Made by a program: the position numbers and the translations under genes | Shown here: positions 1-13,582 of the stretch, piece after piece | Layout: each line of letters begins with the position of its first letter | How positions within the stretch are numbered: position 1 is the stretch's first letter | Virus record (IMG/VR): IMGVR_UViG_3300035698_035352 | Coordinates: 1-30,485 of that record | From: a virus | Length of the DNA stretch: 30,485 nt | Direction: 5' to 3' (one strand) | The notes under the pieces: model-generated | Told to the model about the DNA's origin: nothing | Databases searched by the model: none | What the model saw: only the letters and a program-made list of their open reading frames with translations

Positions 1-609
1 GTGCCGGTTTCCGTTACTTGGCTATCGCCAATTGAATCTGACGATTTTGCGGAATACCGGGACAGCGATTTTCTTGAAAAACTCGGTGTCAGTTTAAACA
101 CCCGTTCGCTCTTGGAATTCTGGCCCAAGGGCGGACCGGTATGGGACGGGCTTGGGCGAACCGAGAATGGCGATTTGTTGCTGGTAGAAGCGAAAGCTCA
201 TATCGGGGAGATAAAATCTTCGGCGAGCCAGGCAAGTCCCGCATCACTGGAGCGAATTCAAACTGCGTTGCGTGAAACGCAGCATTATCTGGGCGTGGAC
301 CAAACTATCGATTGGTCTGGGCGATATTATCAATACACCAACCGCTTGGCACATCTGTATTTTTTGCGAGAGGTACACCAGCTGCCAGCTTGGCTGGTGT
401 TCGTTTACTTCGTCAACGACACGGATATGTCCGGGCCGGGAACCAAAGAGGAATGGGGTGACGCAATCAAGGACATGAAATCGGCACTCGGCCTGCCGGA
501 AAACCACTTACTTAGTGAATACGTTATTGATTTGTATGTGGACGTGAATGGCTTGCCGACAGATCCGCCTTTAGTGCTCCGAAAAGCTACTCAGAAAGAG
601 CATTTCTGA
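1..609 (+). CDS. Conserved hypothetical protein with a possible PD-(D/E)XK nuclease-like motif
   Basis: Open from a GTG at the first base, so the true start may lie outside the window. The 202-residue product has a D49 (WDG) followed by a strand ending in E63-x-K65 (LLLVEAKAH), which is the spacing seen in PD-(D/E)XK nuclease folds. The rest contains a conserved-looking NRLAHLYFLRE segment (about 114-124). I recognise this as a scattered bacterial family of unknown role; nuclease activity is inferred from the motif only. There is no signal peptide or membrane segment. Its 3' end overlaps the convergent 95-aa frame by 23 bp. It lies outside the phage module and is probably host accessory DNA. 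Confidence 0.6.
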   Translation: MPVSVTWLSPIESDDFAEYRDSDFLEKLGVSLNTRSLLEFWPKGGPVWDGLGRTENGDLLLVEAKAHIGEIKSSASQASPASLERIQTALRETQHYLGVDQTIDWSGRYYQYTNRLAHLYFLREVHQLPAWLVFVYFVNDTDMSGPGTKEEWGDAIKDMKSALGLPENHLLSEYVIDLYVDVNGLPTDPPLVLRKATQKEHF

Positions 610-874
610 TTGCCAGTCTCAGGATTTCCGCATGGACTTGGGCGCTCCGCATCTGCGCTTCTATCTCTTCAAGATTGACCCAGTGCTGATCCCATAACTC
701 CGCTCCGGCGAGATCCTGCAGCGACAGCGGTTCCAATGCGCCCCACGTTTCATAATTCTTCAATCGTGAAATGCGTTGATGCAAATCCGGTATCCCACGT
801 GTTTTTGGCGACCCGTTTGCATCACTTTCTATCCATATGTGCCAATCCGAATCGTGAAAGTAGTTTCTGATCAT
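587..874 (-). CDS. Small hypothetical protein, 95 aa
   Basis: Leftward frame starting at the ATG whose complement is at 872-874. A longer in-frame start at 943 would lie inside the divergent gene that begins at 873, so the internal ATG is preferred. The product is acidic and rich in Trp and Leu (HDSDWHIWIE near the start, LWDQHWVNLEEIEAQMRSAQ near 60-80), consistent with a small helical protein. I do not recognise the family. Its start codon overlaps that of the next rightward gene by two bases, and its 3' end runs into the preceding gene. It could be a spurious frame, but its length and composition favour a real gene. Confidence 0.45.
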   Translation of the reverse strand: MIRNYFHDSDWHIWIESDANGSPKTRGIPDLHQRISRLKNYETWGALEPLSLQDLAGAELWDQHWVNLEEIEAQMRSAQVHAEILRLAIRNALSE

Positions 875-1682
875 GACCAAGACCCAGGATCTTTTACCAG
901 CCGATACTGCCGGTGCGGAAATCACCCGGTTCAATGCCCTCAAGCATGGCGTGCTATCGCGCTATACGGTGCTTCCCTGGGAGGAGCCGAACGAATATCA
1001 GGCGCTCCTGGCCTCACTTGCCATCGAGCATCGCCCTGAGGGGCCGACCGAGGAGCACCTCGTGGAGGAACTGGCGGGCATTCTGTGGCGGAAGCGGCGG
1101 CTGCGTCTTGCCGAGGCCGCAGCTTACCGGCACGGCCTTGAAGATGCCCTCGAACCCTTTCGCGGCACGGTCAAAACGGCTTTGGTGCACCTGAAAGGCG
1201 GCAAGCAGATTGAGTGGGTTGTCGATGCAATCCGCGCCACACCCGAGGAAACCGCGCAGGAAATCCGTGATCTCGTCGAGGACGAGGGTATGACCGAGCA
1301 ATCTTGCGCGATCCTGGATGCCGGGGGCGCGCAAGCCTATAGTAAGGCCACCGCTGCGCTACGGGACGATACCCGCGAATGGTGGGAGGAAATGCTTTCC
1401 CGCGACCCGGAGGAGCTTGACGAAGACGAGGAACCGGCAACACCCGATGGGGATAGTTTACGTCGTTTCATCGAGACGGAACTCCTGGCCTGGTATGCCA
1501 AGCGACGGAATGAACTTGAAAACCGTCCCCTTATAAAGGCGCACGCCTTCGGTCAGTCGCTGGATCCGAATAAGCTGGCGGGCCTGGCGCGCTACGAAGT
1601 TCATTTGGACCGCAAGCTGGAGCGCACATTAGCTATGCTGCTGCGCCTCCAGGGTCTTCGGCAGGAAACAGGCGGTCAATAA
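873..1682 (+). CDS. Conserved hypothetical protein of a mobile-element-associated family
   Basis: The 269-residue protein begins with a low-complexity leader, then an NALKHGVLSR motif (about 22-31), a TEEHLVEELAGILWRKRRL helix (about 60-78) and a C-terminal RYEVHLDRKLERTLAMLLRL segment (about 240-259). From memory, this combination marks a widespread alphaproteobacterial family of unknown biochemical function, often near transposons and recombinases. The acidic stretch around residue 180-195 (DPEELDEDEEPATPDGD) looks like a linker. The gene is intact and stops at 1682. A degenerate recombinase fragment lies downstream, which fits a mobile-DNA hotspot. No strong ribosome site is visible. Confidence 0.65.
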   Translation: MTKTQDLLPADTAGAEITRFNALKHGVLSRYTVLPWEEPNEYQALLASLAIEHRPEGPTEEHLVEELAGILWRKRRLRLAEAAAYRHGLEDALEPFRGTVKTALVHLKGGKQIEWVVDAIRATPEETAQEIRDLVEDEGMTEQSCAILDAGGAQAYSKATAALRDDTREWWEEMLSRDPEELDEDEEPATPDGDSLRRFIETELLAWYAKRRNELENRPLIKAHAFGQSLDPNKLAGLARYEVHLDRKLERTLAMLLRLQGLRQETGGQ

Positions 1683-2242
1683 TCCGTTTCGCAAAATGTC
1701 CGGGGCTTTCCTTGCCGCAGTCCCATCCGGAAGGACCAACGTGAATGAGGCGCCGTATGACTTGCAAAGCGTTCTGGTGCAGCAAGCGGTTCTATGCATC
1801 ACGCTCAGACACGAAATACTGCTCAAACGCGCACCGCCAAGCGGCATATCGGTTTCGACACGGCGACGGCTTTAGTCAGGCAATGTTTCTGATACGCCAA
1901 TACCCGTAACGGGTCTGTTTCTGAAAGCTCCGTCCCTGCAATGGTTTAAGTCTCGAGTAACGGGTTTCTGCTGCCCGTAAATCGACATGCGCCATACGTT
2001 CGCGGGCGAGCGTTATCGCTCCGGAAATATGGCGGCGGGTGAATGAGGTCGGACAGGCGATCGTCGGCAATGTCTCGAGGGGAAGGCCAAAAATGCCCGG
2101 ACGGCCCCATGAACCGTGAATATGCCTTCCAGAAAGCGCCCAGGTGCACCGCCAGGCCGAAAAGGGGGAAAAACCGATCCCAGGCGCCTGAAGTCAGAGG
2201 ATGGGCTGTATGCGGCTTCCACGGCGCCCGGGGCGGCGGGCC
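1683..2242. other. Gene-poor scar region between hypothetical gene and recombinase fragment
   Basis: No convincing intact gene is seen here. Short frames exist on both strands but none shows a recognisable family. The octamer TAACGGGT occurs twice (near 1908 and 1958). The open minus frame downstream of the recombinase similarity continues to 1946 but is Pro/Arg-rich and does not look like recombinase. I read this as decayed or rearranged DNA. Confidence 0.4.
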
Positions 2243-2671
2243 AAAGCCTCGGGGCAGCTCAACGCCTTCCCGCTCCGCCTCTGCCCGGTATTCCGCAATC
2301 GTTGGTTTAAGTCTTGGTGTACCGGCGTGCTTGGAGTGCACCATCTTTTCCCGCCGCTCGCGTGTGTCCTTCATAATGCCGGCGGCTTCCGGGGCTTCCT
2401 CCCAGAGCGCCACCGTCGCCCGGTCCCTCACCCTGCCCCATGGCTTCGCTATGTTGACCAAATGGGCCTTCTTCTTAATCGGAGAGGGAAAGAGGTACGG
2501 GTTACCTTCGACAACGGGGAGCGTGTCGAGAATGGCCAGCGCCTGCGACGACAGAGTAAGAAACTGCTCCTCTCCCGACTTCGTTACGGGGAGTCGTATC
2601 CGTCCCGCCGTCCGGTCAACATCCACACGCTTCGACGTCAGTGGTTCAGACTTGCGTGCACCTGTCAGGAT
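2243..2671 (-). pseudogene. Fragment of a tyrosine recombinase (phage integrase family)
   Basis: In the leftward frame the residues LTGARKSEPL, then VDVDRTAGRIRLPVTKSG, a TLSSQALAILDTLP segment and NPYLFPS match the N-terminal half of the tyrosine-recombinase catalytic domain, including the first catalytic Arg (TGAR). They are followed by KPWGRVRDRA. The box II H-x-x-R and the catalytic Tyr are missing: after GVELPRGF the frame runs into unrelated Pro-rich sequence until a stop at 1946. The N-terminal DNA-binding part is also absent, because the upstream DNA is the truncated lipoprotein frame. It cannot be an active integrase. It looks like the residue of an older integrated element and is not part of the Mu-like phage, which uses DDE transposition. 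Confidence 0.7.
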
Positions 2672-2823
2672 GCGGCCGAGAGAGCGTGATCCGCAAGACC
2701 CTTGCCGGAGGATGCATAAGATATACCGTTCATCGTATATGACAGCGCGGCCATGCCGGCAGGCGCAGCACAGGCCCCGAGTGTTAAGAGCAGCCCGCTC
2801 AGGGCGAATTTTCGAACATGCAT
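2665..2823 (-). pseudogene. Truncated small lipoprotein, 52 aa
   Basis: The leftward frame begins with ATG at 2823 and encodes MHVRKFALSGLLLTLGAC followed by AAPAGMAALSYTMNGISYAS and ends GLADHALSAAS. The n-region, hydrophobic core and L-G-A-C lipobox (Cys18) are a textbook lipoprotein signal. The mature start (ALSYTMNGISY..SGKGL.DHALSA) resembles a small alphaproteobacterial lipoprotein family that normally continues with a Cys-containing segment. Here the frame stops at 2665, exactly where recombinase-like sequence begins in another frame. I infer a deletion or insertion junction that cut the 3' part off. It could still be expressed as a very short lipoprotein. Confidence 0.55.
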
Positions 2824-3142
2824 TTGCCTGATCCCAACGCCGATATTGAACGCCTCTGACGGTACAGATCGCCGGGGTTCATCTGAGACTCAATAGATTA
2901 AGCCTGCCTTAACCGGTAATGCGATGCCGATCGCGAAATATTGGGGGATCGCCGCCTTTTTGGGACGCGTGCCCGGCGATAGATCGCGGTTCCTGCCCCA
3001 GCCAACTCACAAAAAGTAAATCGGCAATAGGGCCGCCACAATTCAACCACCTTTCGTTCGAACAATCCCCGAAGGATAAAAACTCTTAGAAATCAAGGAA
3101 CTAGCAGCCCAGCCAATGCAGCCAAATAAGCGCCGGGATTCT

Positions 3143-3173
3143 TTACATATTTGTAAGCACTCGAAAATTTTCG
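3143..3173. repeat. Two adjacent palindromes in AT-rich DNA
   Basis: TTACA-TATT-TGTAA (3143-3156) is followed after five bases by the perfect 12-bp palindrome CGAAAATTTTCG (3162-3173). The second contains the CGAAAA core typical of many MuA end-binding sites in the family, here in both orientations. They could be transposase or regulator sites; this is inference only. Confidence 0.4.
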
Positions 3174-3250
3174 TAACTCATTGATTCTAAATATAAAAAT
3201 TAAAAAATAATAACCTCTGGATACGTTGTTAACTGACACTTGATGTTGGA

Positions 3251-3300
3251 GTGATGCCGGATGAGGTCGGATGATACAGGATATACCCGGACGTGGCGGA
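3251..3300 (+). repeat. 10-bp-phased GG/GGAT repeat near the prophage left end
   Basis: GG dinucleotides recur at exact 10-bp steps (3259, 3269, 3279, 3289). The first two are GGATGA and the third GGATAT, giving four near-copies of a decamer of the type ATNNNNNNGG. This puts the same motif on one face of the helix. The array ends around 3300, before the leftward gene. Confidence 0.45.
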
Positions 3301-3894: not shown

Positions 3895-4377
3895 TCACCG
3901 CGTCAACCCTGCGACCCTGAGCATGCCGCCGACCAGCGCGTCCACACCGTCATCATCGACCCCATCGCCTTCGCGGGACCCACGGTTTTTCAGCAGCCAC
4001 GCATAGGATTCTGCGCAGACGAGGGCTTTGTCTTTCGGTGACGGATCGGCGTCACTGTCGGCGATTTCCGCGTCGATAATCCCGATGACCTTGGCCAGCA
4101 GCGCGGCGTCAACCGGCGTGCTTTCCACATTCACAGCCTCTCGGCCAGTCGCCAGCCAATCCAGGCTGACGCCTGCCGCCTGGCACAAGCCATGCAGACC
4201 AAGAAATCTCGGTTCCGTCCTTCCATCCCGCCACGCAGCCAGAGTTTCATCGGTAACTCCAGCATAAGGTGCAGCCTTACCCAGGCCTCCCAACGTCTTT
4301 ATGGCTTGCGCGAACCTCATGCCAAGTTCCCGCGTGTATCTAGGAACGGCCGTTCCATCTTTATTATCGTGTTCCAT
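3895..4377 (-). CDS. CI/Cro-type phage repressor (helix-turn-helix)
   Basis: The 160-residue protein has an N-terminal XRE-type helix-turn-helix (about 18-75: LGMRFAQAIKTLGG, then AAPYAGVTDETLAAWRDGRTEP and LHGLCQAAGVSLDWLATGRE). The remainder is an acidic helical tail, with no Ser/Lys S24 peptidase domain. This matches the short repressors of Mu-like phages that keep the early promoter silent in the lysogen. It is transcribed leftward, away from Ner, with the 183-bp control region between them. Without an S24 domain it should not self-cleave in the SOS response, so induction would need another route. No strong Shine-Dalgarno is visible and the leader from the predicted promoter would be very short. 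Confidence 0.85.
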   Translation of the reverse strand: MEHDNKDGTAVPRYTRELGMRFAQAIKTLGGLGKAAPYAGVTDETLAAWRDGRTEPRFLGLHGLCQAAGVSLDWLATGREAVNVESTPVDAALLAKVIGIIDAEIADSDADPSPKDKALVCAESYAWLLKNRGSREGDGVDDDGVDALVGGMLRVAGLTR

Positions 4378-8202: not shown

Positions 8203-9171
8203 ATGGCACCCGAAGAAAAAGACAGAGTGTTCAGCGATACGGAAATTGTCGAAACGCGTAACCGTGCGGCGCTGGTCATCGTTGACGAAAAGATAACCAA
8301 GAAAGCCGCCTCCGACGAAGCAGGAATCTCATATACGACGTTCGCTTCCTGGCTCGACGGAAAATATGCAGGCAACAACAACCGGATAACCGGCGAAGCC
8401 CATAACTGGCTCGTGTCGCGCACGGAGAAAAAGCGCCGGCTGGCGACCGTACAAAAGTCGCCTTGCTTCCAGAACACACCTACGGCCAAGCGATTCATGG
8501 AGGCGTTGCAATTCGCGCAGATCCTGCCGGAAATCGTGGTGATCGCCGCCGTTGCCGGGGTGGGAAAAACCACTGCCGTCCGTCAGTACCAGAAGATAAA
8601 TCCGAATGTCTGGACGGCCACGATGTCGCCCAGCACCAGCTCGCCCAACGGCATGATGAAAGCGCTATGCGTCACGCTCAGTATCACCGAGCGCCGTTAC
8701 GGCGGCGAGCTTGTCCGCACGATCGGCGGCAAGGTCCGTGGCATGGGCGGCGTTATTATCATTGACGAGGCGCAGCACCTGTCGCCGCTGGCCCTGGATC
8801 AACTCCGGCATTTCTACGACGAGTACGGCGTCGGCATCGCCCTCGTGGGAAATGAAACGGTTTATTCCCGCCTGGAAGGCGATGGGACGACAGCGAAGTT
8901 CGCACAGTTATTCTCCCGGATTGGCGCCCGTGTAACCCAACTAAAGCCCACGATGGCAGACCTTGATGTGTTGATAGGTGCATGGGGCATCACCGACAGC
9001 GAAGAGATTAGGTTACTGAAAAAGATCGGCCAGAAACCGGGCGCGTTGCGGCGGGTGGATAAAAACATGCAGCTCGCGTCGATGCTGGCCGCCGGCGAAG
9101 AAAAAACCCGAGGCGAAAAACATATAAGGGCGGCATTCGAACGGCTTTCGAATTCGTCCGCACAGAGCTGA
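8203..9171 (+). CDS. B: MuB-like AAA+ ATPase, transposition target selector
   Basis: The 322-aa protein (Mu B is 312 aa) begins with a small helix-turn-helix domain (about 20-60: KKAASDEAGISYTTFASWLDGKY). An AAA+ ATPase core follows with Walker A AVAGVGKTT (116-124, K122), Walker B GVIIIDEAQHL (183-193, D188/E189) and a sensor-like LVGNETVY (about 214-221). Mu B forms ATP-dependent filaments on target DNA and stimulates MuA. GAGGA precedes the ATG. A 108-bp gap without visible structure separates it from the transposase, unusual in this tightly packed operon, so it may be translated independently. Confidence 0.93.
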   Translation: MAPEEKDRVFSDTEIVETRNRAALVIVDEKITKKAASDEAGISYTTFASWLDGKYAGNNNRITGEAHNWLVSRTEKKRRLATVQKSPCFQNTPTAKRFMEALQFAQILPEIVVIAAVAGVGKTTAVRQYQKINPNVWTATMSPSTSSPNGMMKALCVTLSITERRYGGELVRTIGGKVRGMGGVIIIDEAQHLSPLALDQLRHFYDEYGVGIALVGNETVYSRLEGDGTTAKFAQLFSRIGARVTQLKPTMADLDVLIGAWGITDSEEIRLLKKIGQKPGALRRVDKNMQLASMLAAGEEKTRGEKHIRAAFERLSNSSAQS

Positions 9172-9182
9172 GGGAGGTTCAC

Positions 9183-9461
9183 ATGCTTTCCCAGGACATA
9201 AGAAACCTCGCCCGCGTCTTCGACGGGTTCGGCGCGCTGGACGGCTCTACCGAGCTGACGCCGGCACAGCTTCGCACATTTGCCTGGTCGCTGGGCACGA
9301 TGGCCGAGCAGGCGGAGAGGCTTGAAGCCCACACCGTCCCGGCGCAGGCGCGGCTGACGCCGGGTAATCGTCCGGCCAACGTGATCGATATTCCACGCTC
9401 GAAGCCGTGGGGCGGTCATAAGCGGACCCCGCATCGGCCGCCGGAAGGGGGTGCGGCATGA
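9183..9461 (+). CDS. Small hypothetical early protein
   Basis: The 92-aa product has a good ribosome site (GGAGG before the ATG) and a helical first half (SQDIRNLARVFDGFGAL, then LTPAQLRTFAWSLGTMAEQAERLEAH). The basic Pro-rich tail (RSKPWGGHKRTPHRPPEGG) may be unstructured and nucleic-acid-binding. I do not recognise a family. It follows MuB by 11 bp and overlaps the DnaA-domain gene by 4 bp, so it belongs to the early operon. Confidence 0.65.
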   Translation: MLSQDIRNLARVFDGFGALDGSTELTPAQLRTFAWSLGTMAEQAERLEAHTVPAQARLTPGNRPANVIDIPRSKPWGGHKRTPHRPPEGGAA

Positions 9462-10051
9462 ACGCCTATCCATCGATAGCGGCCATCAAGCTCAGTGTCG
9501 CCGCGCAGTTCGGCGTGACGGCGCGGGACATGGTTTCGCAGTACCGCGCCGTCCACGTGGCCCGGCCGCGCCAGGTGGGCATGTATCTCGCGAGGGAACT
9601 GACGCCGGTGTCATACCCGCAAATCGGCATGGCGTTCGGCGGGCGCGACCACACAACCGTGATGCATGCGCATAGCCGGATCGGCGAGCTGGTTGCGGTT
9701 AATCCCGACCTGCGCCGCCGGGTAGAAGCGCTTCGTCTGTCCCTGTCCGACGCCACAACGCTGGTCGAGGTGCCGGCCAACTGCAGTCTGGATGAGGCCG
9801 CGCGGGCGGCGATGAACAGAGCCGTCAGGCGCGCCAAGCTCGATCCCGACATGACGATCACCGGTACCGAGGACGCCGTTCGGCGAACGCTGTTCGAGGC
9901 GTTCGGCGAGGAGCCGCGCTTCCGCGCCCAGGGGGCGAACGAGCAGGTCATCGAGTTCCTGGTGTCGCCGGAGGGAAGCTGGTCGCGGCTCGTGATAGAC
10001 GGCGCCGTCGCGAAGGTCGCGGAGAGCGGCATCGAGTGGGTGTCGGTCTGA
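9458..10051 (+). CDS. Protein with DnaA-type domain IV DNA-binding fold
   Basis: Residues about 5-80 match DnaA domain IV: a helix ending in RPRQVGMYLARELTPVSYPQIGMAFGG, then the signature GGRDHTTVMHAHSRI (61-75), whose equivalents contact the DnaA box in host DnaA. There is no ATPase domain; instead a C-terminal part of about 110 residues of unknown fold follows (VEVPANCSLDEAARAAMNRAV and later LVIDGAVAKVAESGIEWVSV). It may bind host or phage DnaA-box-like sites to steer replication after transposition, or may mimic or compete with DnaA; both are inference. It sits in the early operon between MuB and Gam. Confidence 0.82.
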   Translation: MNAYPSIAAIKLSVAAQFGVTARDMVSQYRAVHVARPRQVGMYLARELTPVSYPQIGMAFGGRDHTTVMHAHSRIGELVAVNPDLRRRVEALRLSLSDATTLVEVPANCSLDEAARAAMNRAVRRAKLDPDMTITGTEDAVRRTLFEAFGEEPRFRAQGANEQVIEFLVSPEGSWSRLVIDGAVAKVAESGIEWVSV

Positions 10052-10170
10052 TGCGCCGCCCGTTCAGAAACCCGTTCAAAACCCTGAGACAGCAGATCCG
10101 CTGGTGGCGATCCGTGTGGTTCGCCCCGCGCCGGGTTGTCGTCAACCATACCAATCGGAGGAACGCATGA
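10051..10170 (+). CDS. 39-aa arginine-rich small protein
   Basis: An ATG overlapping the DnaA-domain gene's stop (TGATG) opens a 40-codon frame that ends by overlapping the Gam start (ATGA). The product (MRRPFRNPFKTLRQQIRWWR, then SVWFAPRRVVVNHTNRRNA) has ten Arg and three Trp and is strongly basic. It fills the gap exactly with overlaps at both ends, as expected for a translated link in the operon. It may bind nucleic acid or membranes, or may only couple translation to Gam. Confidence 0.5.
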   Translation: MRRPFRNPFKTLRQQIRWWRSVWFAPRRVVVNHTNRRNA

Positions 10171-10742
10171 AAGCGACAAGCAAAGTCCCGAAGGACGAGA
10201 CGGAAGTGCCCGCGCCGGATACGGTTATGATCAACCACTACGCCTGGGTATATGCCGATACGCGGAGAATGGTGGCCCATAGTGTTTCCATACTGGAGGC
10301 GGAAATGGCGGATGCGAAGCGCCGGCATCTGCCGGATATCCGCAAGCTGGTCGGCGTCCAGGCGTCGGCAGAGGCCGACCTGCACGCGGCGGTCGCCGCC
10401 CGGCCCGACCTGTTCACCCGTCCGAAGACACGGATCCTGCACGGCATCAAATTCGGCTGGACGAAGCAAAAGGGCAAAATTTCGTGGGACGATCCGGCGA
10501 AGGTGGTGAAGGCGATCCGCCGACTGTTCCCGCGCAGATTCAAATCGCTGGTGAAGACGACCGAAGCCCCGATCAAGACGGCTCTTAATGCTCTCTCCGC
10601 CGCCGATCTGAAGAAGCTCGGCGTGACGGTCGGCAGCGATACCGACACGGTGACCATCGCGCCGATCGACAGCGAGATCGACAAGCTGGTCAAGACGCTG
10701 CTGGCGTCGGCCAGGGACGCCGCCGGCGATGGTGAATCCTGA
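10167..10742 (+). CDS. gam: Mu Gam-like host-nuclease inhibitor
   Basis: The 191-aa protein belongs to the Mu Gam family, Ku-like proteins that coat double-strand DNA ends and block exonucleases. The central part shows the long coiled helices expected (VAHSVSILEAEMADAKRRHLPDIRKLVG), followed by RILHGIKFGWTKQKGKISWDDPAKVVKAIRRLFP and TTEAPIKTALNALSAADLKKLGVTV, the conserved core. The frame is open back to 10104, but the ATG at 10167 is preferred because GGAGG stands just before it and the 39-aa gene's stop overlaps it. It overlaps the next gene by one base (TGATG). Confidence 0.9.
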   Translation: MKATSKVPKDETEVPAPDTVMINHYAWVYADTRRMVAHSVSILEAEMADAKRRHLPDIRKLVGVQASAEADLHAAVAARPDLFTRPKTRILHGIKFGWTKQKGKISWDDPAKVVKAIRRLFPRRFKSLVKTTEAPIKTALNALSAADLKKLGVTVGSDTDTVTIAPIDSEIDKLVKTLLASARDAAGDGES

Positions 10743-11876: not shown

Positions 11877-12194
11877 ATGGATCGCCCCGCCACACACCCG
11901 AACATGCGCACCGCGCTCGCGAATCTCGCGAGCGTGGCTGCCGGGTTTGCCGTGGGCCGGGGCCGGCAGGATGCCCGCAAGGCGCTGCGCGACTGCATCA
12001 AGGAGGCGAATGCTGCACTGAACGTACCGACAGCCGGTGTGCCGGTGATGAGCGTCAGCGATCCGGATGCACTGGTGGACGCTTACATGGCCGCCAACGG
12101 TGACTGGTGTGCGCTGACCGCCGCGGTGAACCGCAACGCGATGAAGGGATCGTCGCGAAAGCGGGTCAGGATTCCGGGGGCAGCAAGTGAATAA
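11877..12194 (+). CDS. Small hypothetical protein, 105 aa
   Basis: The ATG at 11877 is 10 bp after the previous stop. The product has a hydrophobic Ala/Gly stretch near the start (LANLASVAAGFAVGRG), too short and interrupted for a sure membrane segment, then RQDARKALRDCIKEANAALN and a basic tail (MKGSSRKRVRIPG). I do not recognise it. Its 3' end overlaps the convergent helix-turn-helix gene by 29 bp, marking the junction with the leftward cassette. Confidence 0.5.
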   Translation: MDRPATHPNMRTALANLASVAAGFAVGRGRQDARKALRDCIKEANAALNVPTAGVPVMSVSDPDALVDAYMAANGDWCALTAAVNRNAMKGSSRKRVRIPGAASE

Positions 12195-12387
12195 GGCGAT
12201 CGATATTGGTTCCACGTGCAAGCAACAAACGGCGCAATTCGTGCGGCAGTCCTTCGGGAATGGCCCGTTGGCCACCTACCCAGCGATGAACTGTTCGCAC
12301 GTCGACGCGAAGCACCTCCGCCAATTCAGCCTTCCAGTTTCGCCCGTAAAGCGCCTCGCCGATCTCTGCAAAAACGTCAGGTGTCAT
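12166..12387 (-). CDS. Small helix-turn-helix regulator (leftward cassette)
   Basis: The 73-aa leftward product matches small XRE-like DNA-binding proteins: VFAEIGEALYGRNWKAELAEVLRVDVRTVHRWVGGQRAIPEGLPHELRRLL, with the turn at about 25-40. It is the second gene of a leftward pair (ATG overlapping the upstream gene's stop by 4 bp). A lone regulator opposite to the early operon may tune the cassette or the phage early genes, possibly in the lysogen. The targets are unknown. Confidence 0.7.
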   Translation of the reverse strand: MTPDVFAEIGEALYGRNWKAELAEVLRVDVRTVHRWVGGQRAIPEGLPHELRRLLLARGTNIDRLIHLLPPES

Positions 12388-12788
12388 TCAGGATTTCCGA
12401 CTCTGCGCACATATTCGTTCGCGCTGTATTCCAGGTCTCCGTGGTTCTCCAGCAACCGCGCCATAGCGACGACGGCATCTTGGCCGCCTTGCTCCCTGCA
12501 CTCATTCAATGTCGTCAACACGTCCGTGAATGTTAGCTTTTTTGGTCTTGGACGAGGGTTTGGTTCGGCTTCCCATCGTTCGAAATCGTCTCTCATCCCT
12601 TCGAGGTTCGCAAGTGCTCGCAGTGTGCCGGGTCTGTCCGATTCAAATTTCGATGCAAGCCTGACTTCGTCTTCGAAGGTCTCACGGGGAAGATGGTCAA
12701 GGGTGCCGTATTTCACCCGCATGAACGCTTCCGCGCCGGCAGGATTTACGTCGGGGGAAATTTCATGAAGCGTTTCTTGATAAGACAT
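12384..12788 (-). CDS. Conserved hypothetical protein of the leftward cassette
   Basis: Start chosen at the ATG at 12788 (134 aa): AAAGG lies upstream of it, and a consensus promoter at 12844-12874 would start transcription between this ATG and the in-frame ATGs farther upstream. The protein contains VNPAGAEAFMRVKYGTLDHLPRETFEDEVRLA (about 14-45), a family pattern I have seen in proteobacterial accessory DNA without a function, then a charged linker (EAEPNPRPRPKKLTF) and a helical tail. It is followed directly by the helix-turn-helix gene, so the pair probably forms an operon. Confidence 0.65.
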   Translation of the reverse strand: MSYQETLHEISPDVNPAGAEAFMRVKYGTLDHLPRETFEDEVRLASKFESDRPGTLRALANLEGMRDDFERWEAEPNPRPRPKKLTFTDVLTTLNECREQGGQDAVVAMARLLENHGDLEYSANEYVRRVGNPE

Positions 12789-12843
12789 TTTTTCGGCCTT
12801 TCGTTGCCAATGTTCGACCGGCCCAAGTGCCATGTCGATGGTC

Positions 12844-12874
12844 ATTATATAGGGACCACTCCCCGGATTGTCCA
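12844..12874 (-). promoter_or_regulatory. Leftward promoter of the antisense cassette
   Basis: A consensus minus-strand TATAAT (12849-12844) with TGGACA (12874-12869) 19 bp upstream. Transcription would start near 12837, about 50 nt before the 134-aa gene. As a sigma-70-like promoter with no visible phage operator, it may be active in the lysogen while the early operon is repressed. Confidence 0.5.
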
Positions 12875-12926
12875 CTGCTTTGTTGTGGCCGATGGAGTTG
12901 TAAACAGGCCGCAAGATCAAGCCAGG

Positions 12927-13163
12927 TTAATCGATGTTCGGCGGATTGGAATGACCCGGCTTCAACAGCACATCCTTTTCGCCCGCCAGCTCATCGGCCC
13001 ACGCAAGGATCGCATCGTTCACAGCGTTGCCCTTCCAGTACCCGGCAGAGCCAGGCGGAACGCGGATGCTGTGCGGGATCACCACGTCAGCGCGAAACGC
13101 CCGCAGCTTTTCGAGCAGTTCGGCTTTCTCATTTTCGGTGAGCGGGCGTCTGCGTCTGGACAT
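12927..13163 (-). CDS. Small hypothetical protein, leftward cassette
   Basis: The 78-aa frame begins MSRRRRPLTENEKAELLEKLRAFRADVV, a basic patch followed by a helix, then HSIRVPPGSAGYWKGNAVNDAILAWADEL and ends GHSNPPNID. I do not recognise it. It is separated from the next leftward gene by 138 bp that contain that gene's promoter, so it has its own upstream signal or is read from further right. Only 56 bp separate it from the divergent ASCH-like gene. No strong Shine-Dalgarno is seen. Confidence 0.55.
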   Translation of the reverse strand: MSRRRRPLTENEKAELLEKLRAFRADVVIPHSIRVPPGSAGYWKGNAVNDAILAWADELAGEKDVLLKPGHSNPPNID

Positions 13164-13219: not shown

Positions 13220-13582
13220 ATGGTCGCATACAATTACAAGGCTCAGTTTGCGTCGGACGTGGAGAGCGGCCGGAAGCGCCAAACGATACGCGCGAAGCGG
13301 AGGGACGGTCGCTGTCCCTCGCCGGGCGATGCACTCCAGCATTACACCGGGATGCGGACCAAGAATTGCCGGAAGCTACGCGACGCCGTTTGTTCGATGG
13401 TCCACGATATCAAGATCAAGGAAAACGGCACCGTGAAGATCGACGGGCAGACGCTTGGCAATATCTGTGTCGAGGATCTGGCGAAAGCTGATGGCTTCAC
13501 CAGCCGCGAGCCGTTCATCGCCTTTTTTCGCGACACCCACGGCCTGCCGTTCCACGGCGACCTGATCAACTGGTCCGCATGA
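13220..13582 (+). CDS. ASCH/PUA-fold-like small protein
   Basis: The 120-aa product begins AYNYKAQFASDVESGRKRQTIRAKRR, a pattern of ASCH-domain proteins (a strand, then a basic K/R-Q-T-I-R helix end), followed by PGDALQHYTGMRTKNCRKLRDAVC and a later VEDLAKADGFTSREPFIAFFRDTHGLPF segment. ASCH domains share the PUA fold and bind RNA or modified nucleotides; the substrate here is unknown. GAGG precedes the ATG. The gene overlaps the methyltransferase start by 4 bp, so the two are likely made together, which hints at a nucleic-acid-modification role. Confidence 0.65.
   Translation: MVAYNYKAQFASDVESGRKRQTIRAKRRDGRCPSPGDALQHYTGMRTKNCRKLRDAVCSMVHDIKIKENGTVKIDGQTLGNICVEDLAKADGFTSREPFIAFFRDTHGLPFHGDLINWSA

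Follow-up and report, generated by a model that had tools for sequence, protein, structure and literature searches.

A probable self-limiting, acr-aca-like gene pair inserted in the early operon of a Mu-like phage

The window analysed here is a whole 30,485-base viral record whose genes are ordered as in a Mu-like phage of an alphaproteobacterium: a c-like repressor gene, read leftward, is followed by Ner-like and ParB-like genes, MuA, MuB, small early genes, GemA and a Mor-like gene. To the left of the repressor, positions 1-3300 hold ORFs of bacterial look, and a leftward tyrosine-recombinase-like fragment was noticed by eye at 1946-2626, at the left end of the window; the record probably includes host DNA at the left end of the prophage. 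Within the rightward early operon, at 12166-13163, lie three leftward ORFs, which code for a helix-turn-helix (HTH) protein of 73 aa and for proteins of 134 and 78 aa. As an earlier note on this DNA had claimed, all three interrupt the early operon, the HTH and 134-aa genes overlap by 4 bp, and the promoter elements TGGACA and TATAAT are present with a spacer of 19 bp. The features are as follows.

3895-4377, leftward: c-like repressor
11877..12194, + strand: rightward early gene, 105 aa, left flank of the insertion; homology with relatives stops near 12174
12166..12387, - strand: 73-aa HTH protein, Aca2-like HTH (phrog_3626-like), predicted autorepressor
12384..12387, - strand: 4-bp ATGA overlap of the 134-aa stop and the HTH start (TCAT on the + strand)
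12384..12788, - strand: 134-aa orphan protein, payload X
12793..12810, - strand: hairpin 2 of the 5'UTR, UUGGC-aacgaaag-GCCGA, with a Shine-Dalgarno-like GAAAG in the loop
12814..12838, - strand: hairpin 1 of the 5'UTR, UCGAC-A-UGGC-acuugg-GCCG-GUCGA, directly after the operator-like palindrome
12839..12858, - strand: operator-like 20-bp imperfect palindrome TGGTCCCTATATAATGACCA, 8/10 pairs, over the -10
12844..12849 (read 12849-12844), - strand: -10 TATAAT; alternative -10 TATATA at 12846-12851
12869..12874 (read 12874-12869), - strand: -35 TGGACA
12927..13163, - strand: 78-aa orphan ORF with phage-like codon usage, upstream of the pair's promoter
13220..13582, + strand: rightward early gene, 120 aa, right flank of the insertion, phrog_8581

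For comparison, MuA-based searches of genomes and viral contigs gave 160 Mu-like loci; with named phages added, 167 loci were compared. None of the 167 carried a homologue of the HTH, 134-aa or 78-aa protein, and BLAST of the region's DNA against phage records returned no matches. L103, a relative, shows the empty site: there the counterparts of the two rightward flanking genes, at 8971-9270 and 9257-10222, overlap each other. The leftward genes at 12166-13163 are therefore an insertion between two genes that are adjacent in this relative. Repeats flanking the insertion were looked for, and none were found. The HTH/134-aa pair has foreign codon usage, with a GC3 of 57 and 55% as against 62-85%, mostly 70 or more, in the other genes, and with a codon score near zero where the score is positive elsewhere in the window. 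The 78-aa gene has codon usage like the phage's own and lies upstream of the pair's promoter, and the insertion therefore holds at least two units. It is a separate gene inside the same insertion, and the promoter drives only the 134-aa/HTH pair. Thus, of the single three-gene cassette that had been proposed, the common leftward orientation and the place in the early operon stand, but its homogeneity does not. The earlier proposal was borne out in so far as the accessory unit is independent and anti-oriented and has a promoter to itself; the unit is absent from all relatives examined, and no rightward version of it, which would have spoken against the earlier note, turned up in relatives, as these lack the cassette altogether. 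Insertion between adjacent genes and differing composition, two marks of a moron, are both found in the pair. As for the third mark, a promoter and terminator of its own, the promoter is present and no intrinsic terminator was recognised at the pair's end, on its leftward side.

The stretch between the early genes and gemA, which corresponds to the slot at 12166-13163, is a recurrent slot for anti-oriented genes. Rhizobial Mu-like phages carry leftward cassettes for putative membrane proteins there (L004, 10184-11619; L052, 14726-15529), and the leftward protein of L052 is similar to AUSSIE_16/17 of Sinorhizobium phage Aussie.

The HTH gene is supported by homology, the 78-aa ORF by its phage-like codon usage, and the 134-aa ORF by the tandem arrangement, by being the best-scoring reading frame and by the leader RNA structure. 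A longer start at 12833 for the 134-aa gene was rejected, as it lies inside hairpin 1; a Shine-Dalgarno-like site precedes 12788. Searches for homologues of the 134-aa protein gave nothing usable in phages, plasmids, viral contigs and 385 class-level genomes, and the same was true of the 78-aa protein in phages and viral contigs. The only hint of a relative is a 66-aa protein encoded beside the same HTH family (L192, 3784-3984), which weakly resembles the C-terminal ~45 aa of the 134-aa protein; a TatB match (L175) was judged spurious. No known exclusion or defence family, nor any other annotated one, was matched by the 134-aa or the 78-aa protein, and the 134-aa protein matches no toxin family and no known Acr. 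Its structure model is helical and of low confidence, and a BFVD fold search with this poor model gave chance matches only.

The HTH protein was more informative. PHROGs lists its family as unknown (phrog_3626, phrog_12690). When a profile of the family was compared with solved structures, Aca2 came first (E 6e-5), followed by the HigA-2 antitoxin and YdiL, with the Aca2 match confined to the HTH part. The AlphaFold model (pLDDT 97) aligned best with the AcrIF25 HTH domain, Aca2, Aca10, SO3848 and HigA2 at VIA-align Z 7-8; these values are modest, so the link to Aca2 rests on profile and architecture together. The Pfam model Aca2_YdiL was weakly matched by 17 of 26 family members, and a YdaS model was also weakly matched by many. 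The homology comparison with known Acas ran without the sequences of Aca3-6, 8, 9 and 12. The window HTH is a member of an unannotated phage family (phrog_3626-like) for which Aca2 is the closest counterpart by profile and among the closest by fold, and at 73 aa its model consists of the HTH only, without the C-terminal dimerisation domain of Aca2.

Searches of viral contigs and genomes with the HTH gave about 100 loci, of which about 70 were non-redundant. The usual arrangement, seen in dozens of phage loci, is a tandem with the HTH gene in second place behind a small first gene that is a different one in most loci, and at least 25 loci have an ATGA-type overlap like that of the window, which suggests translational coupling of the 134-aa and HTH genes. 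Those first-gene X proteins that were scanned contained no Pfam or NCBIfam domain, no known Acr and no RelE/HigB-type domain. A payload without annotated matches is typical of Acrs, but proves nothing. The downstream neighbour was convergent in 36/55 family loci, compared with 36/244 background neighbours (p 2e-13), and opposite-strand genes flanked the pair on both sides in 17/48 family loci. The convergent placement of the window pair is therefore normal for the family. In some loci (L170, 2680-3198; L227, L234 and L250, e.g. Mannheimia phage 535AP2) the HTH is carried by an ORF with a long N-terminal extension; such extensions are possibly payload-HTH fusions like Acr-Aca fusions, and in some cases the ORF may have been given too early a start.

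Many family loci have, ahead of the first gene, a conserved 20-bp palindrome on the -10 of a TTGACA promoter. This family operator, ATGTCSTANNNNTASGACAT, or ATGTC(C/G)TA-N4-TA(G/C)GACAT, was found at 12/16 or better in 38/70 non-redundant loci against about 2 expected, and at 14/16 or better in 18/70 against 0 expected; 32/70 loci had no recognisable operator of this kind. A DNA-only search of viral contigs for the promoter-operator found 8 new loci, with an HTH gene 297-648 bp downstream in five of them, and the three without an HTH were also without a hairpin; an earlier, first search of this type behaved similarly. The residue in the recognition helix co-varied with the operator, Q going with GTCG (6/6) and R with GTCC (32/32), in statistics that ignore relatedness. 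This co-variation supports, at the level of the family, a predicted repression of the own promoter. The R/GTCC and Q/GTCG rule, seen for example in L208, L204, L262, L203 and L179, is a protein-DNA code readable from sequence. The window HTH has H at this position (H34).

The promoter of the window pair is off-consensus in its spacing, and a plain sigma-70 scan limited to spacers of 16-18 bp did not report the TGGACA/TATAAT promoter; the family geometry also permits TGGACA-17-TATATA. TGGACA stands 10 bp ahead of the palindrome, with the GTC-N10-GAC spacing of the family. A -35 of at least 5/6 followed at the correct spacing by a 20-bp palindrome of at least 8/10 occurred at 2 of 60,800 positions on both strands, one of which is the pair's promoter. 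Against the PWM of the family operators the window palindrome scored -7.6 bits, below background, and we do not claim it as a family operator at the level of sequence; what places it in the family is its position and symmetry, the GTC-N10-GAC spacing and the presence of the hairpins. The diverged sequence of the window operator is the weakest link of the assignment.

The leader RNA carries a second set of shared features. In the window the order is TGGACA, palindrome, hairpin 1, hairpin 2 and the ATG at 12788. In 34/41 family leaders, hairpin 1 lies directly after the operator and is a stem interrupted on its 5' side by a bulge, mostly A, beyond which come an inner stem and a short loop, and hairpin 2, likewise in 34/41, is a second stem with the Shine-Dalgarno in its loop. 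The window leader has both, which occurred in 0.2% of shuffles (P about 0.002), and its folding z is -2.37. MAFFT with RNAalifold on leaders of unequal length gave no structure, because two hairpin forms misalign; we used equal-length subsets instead, with the alignments for the pair counts picked by form, and each hairpin showed compensatory changes. Rfam contained no family matching the leader. In a subset of family leaders (L196, L193, L239, L257 and L214) the operator and hairpin 1 are separated by about 11 additional bases, which means that hairpin 1 does not always stand at the extreme 5' end.

Taken together, these findings suggest that the HTH/134-aa pair is an autorepressed, acr-aca-like moron of two genes, self-contained and acquired recently, a reading to which we give a probability of about two in three. 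The strong promoter would fire when phage DNA enters the cell, so that the 134-aa payload is made, and the HTH would be produced from the same mRNA through translational coupling. The HTH would then bind the palindrome on the -10 and shut the promoter. It may also bind the 5'-terminal RNA hairpin, as does Aca2, which represses at the RNA level as well, through mRNA hairpins; the second hairpin would hold the Shine-Dalgarno. Expression would then be expected to peak briefly at entry or induction and to stay low in the lysogen. Going by the architecture, the 134-aa payload would most likely be an anti-defence or host-takeover factor.

The strongest competing explanation is the one the earlier note had offered, lysogenic conversion or superinfection exclusion, in which the promoter is active in the lysogen and other phages are blocked by the 134-aa protein, the 78-aa protein or both. 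The pair does have its own promoter, is anti-oriented and is independent of the early promoter; in Sinorhizobium phage Aussie, as in L052, this slot is taken up by leftward genes for putative membrane proteins; and in the B3-like phage Fc02 an opposite-strand gene, antisense to the early genes and expressed in the lysogen, gives exclusion (PMC9936078). We nevertheless consider this explanation unlikely, since the predicted autorepression argues for low expression in the lysogen and neither protein resembles a known exclusion or defence family. An unregulated promoter, simply on in the lysogen, does not agree with a candidate operator on the -10, two leader hairpins and an Aca2-like autoregulator family, so that the promoter is probably self-limited rather than freely on.

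Two further explanations are less likely. A type II toxin-antitoxin pair of HigBA type, toxin first and HTH antitoxin second, would fit the order with overlap, the predicted autoregulation by a palindrome, the presence of HigA-2 among the closest profile and fold matches, and the weak YdaS matches; but X is dozens of different orphans, without RelE/HigB-type domains in those scanned, and the 134-aa protein, predicted to be helical with low confidence, has no toxin match, and we regard this explanation as improbable. Least probable is an antisense brake, also raised in the earlier note, by which leftward transcription would reduce the early rightward transcript, either by collision or by antisense RNA. 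Although the pair is convergent within the early operon and no intrinsic terminator was found on its leftward side, in other phages pairs of this type also converge on a variety of unrelated genes, and in relatives the early operon does without the pair.

If the acr-aca-like reading is right, the 134-aa gene would be switched on when the phage enters or is induced and would not run freely in the lysogen, and the signature of promoter, operator, hairpins and HTH would offer a homology-free route to small anti-defence or takeover genes without recognisable relatives. To our knowledge, dual DNA/RNA autoregulation by a single HTH protein is known only from Aca2, and it would here extend to a minimal one-domain protein. 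The architecture places the pair in a class of phage operons, widespread and mostly unannotated, that would curb their own expression at two levels, DNA and RNA, in the manner of operons for anti-CRISPR proteins. A bolder reading, possible and put forward tentatively, is that the cassette represents a large class, so far unnamed, of anti-oriented phage morons with a 70-aa Aca2-like repressor, two-tier self-control by DNA operator and leader RNA hairpins, and ever-changing anti-defence payloads that include the 134-aa protein; in that case operator and hairpins together could serve as a sequence tag by which to find many new anti-defence genes.

Among known systems, HigBA2 shares with the pair the fold of the second-gene HTH and the autoregulation, predicted here, and differs in that no toxin-like first gene was recognised in the window pair. 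AUSSIE_16/17 of Sinorhizobium phage Aussie likewise form a leftward cassette in the same early-operon slot that is absent from a relative, StopSmel, but they are two putative membrane proteins with no HTH. Accessory regions of low GC in Mu-like phages of Pseudomonas contain acr genes together with an associated gene (PMC4378225). These regions have in common with our locus a Mu-like phage, foreign composition, insertion among core genes and a small payload with a conserved associated gene; the genes and payloads are different, and the window pair is anti-oriented inside the early operon. In Aca systems, the HTH protein shuts the promoter from which it is made by obstructing polymerase at the -10 (PMC9410906, PMC8434428, PMC9410881), and on this literature we infer own-promoter repression by the window HTH. 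The comparison with the acrIF8-aca2 operon of Pectobacterium phage ZF40 (Pfam Aca2_YdiL) is the closest, as Aca2 is the nearest HTH by profile and among the nearest by fold. Aca2 is longer (116-125 aa against 73 aa), and the C-terminal dimerisation domain that marks Aca2 proper is lacking in the window HTH. The operators also differ, with ATGTCCTA-N4-TAGGACAT in the family and GTTCGCAATTGCGAAC contained in the Aca2 probe (PMC9410881), and the leaders of the HTH family, where a hairpin with a bulged A is joined by another whose loop contains the Shine-Dalgarno, are a distinct arrangement. Common to both are a small payload followed by the gene of an HTH autorepressor, predicted as such in the window, and an inverted repeat over the core promoter. 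The window pair has two of the features by which acr-aca operons are recognised, a small (<150 aa) HTH protein behind a small payload in a short operon and an inverted repeat within the core promoter, here an 8/10 palindrome of diverged sequence on the -10.
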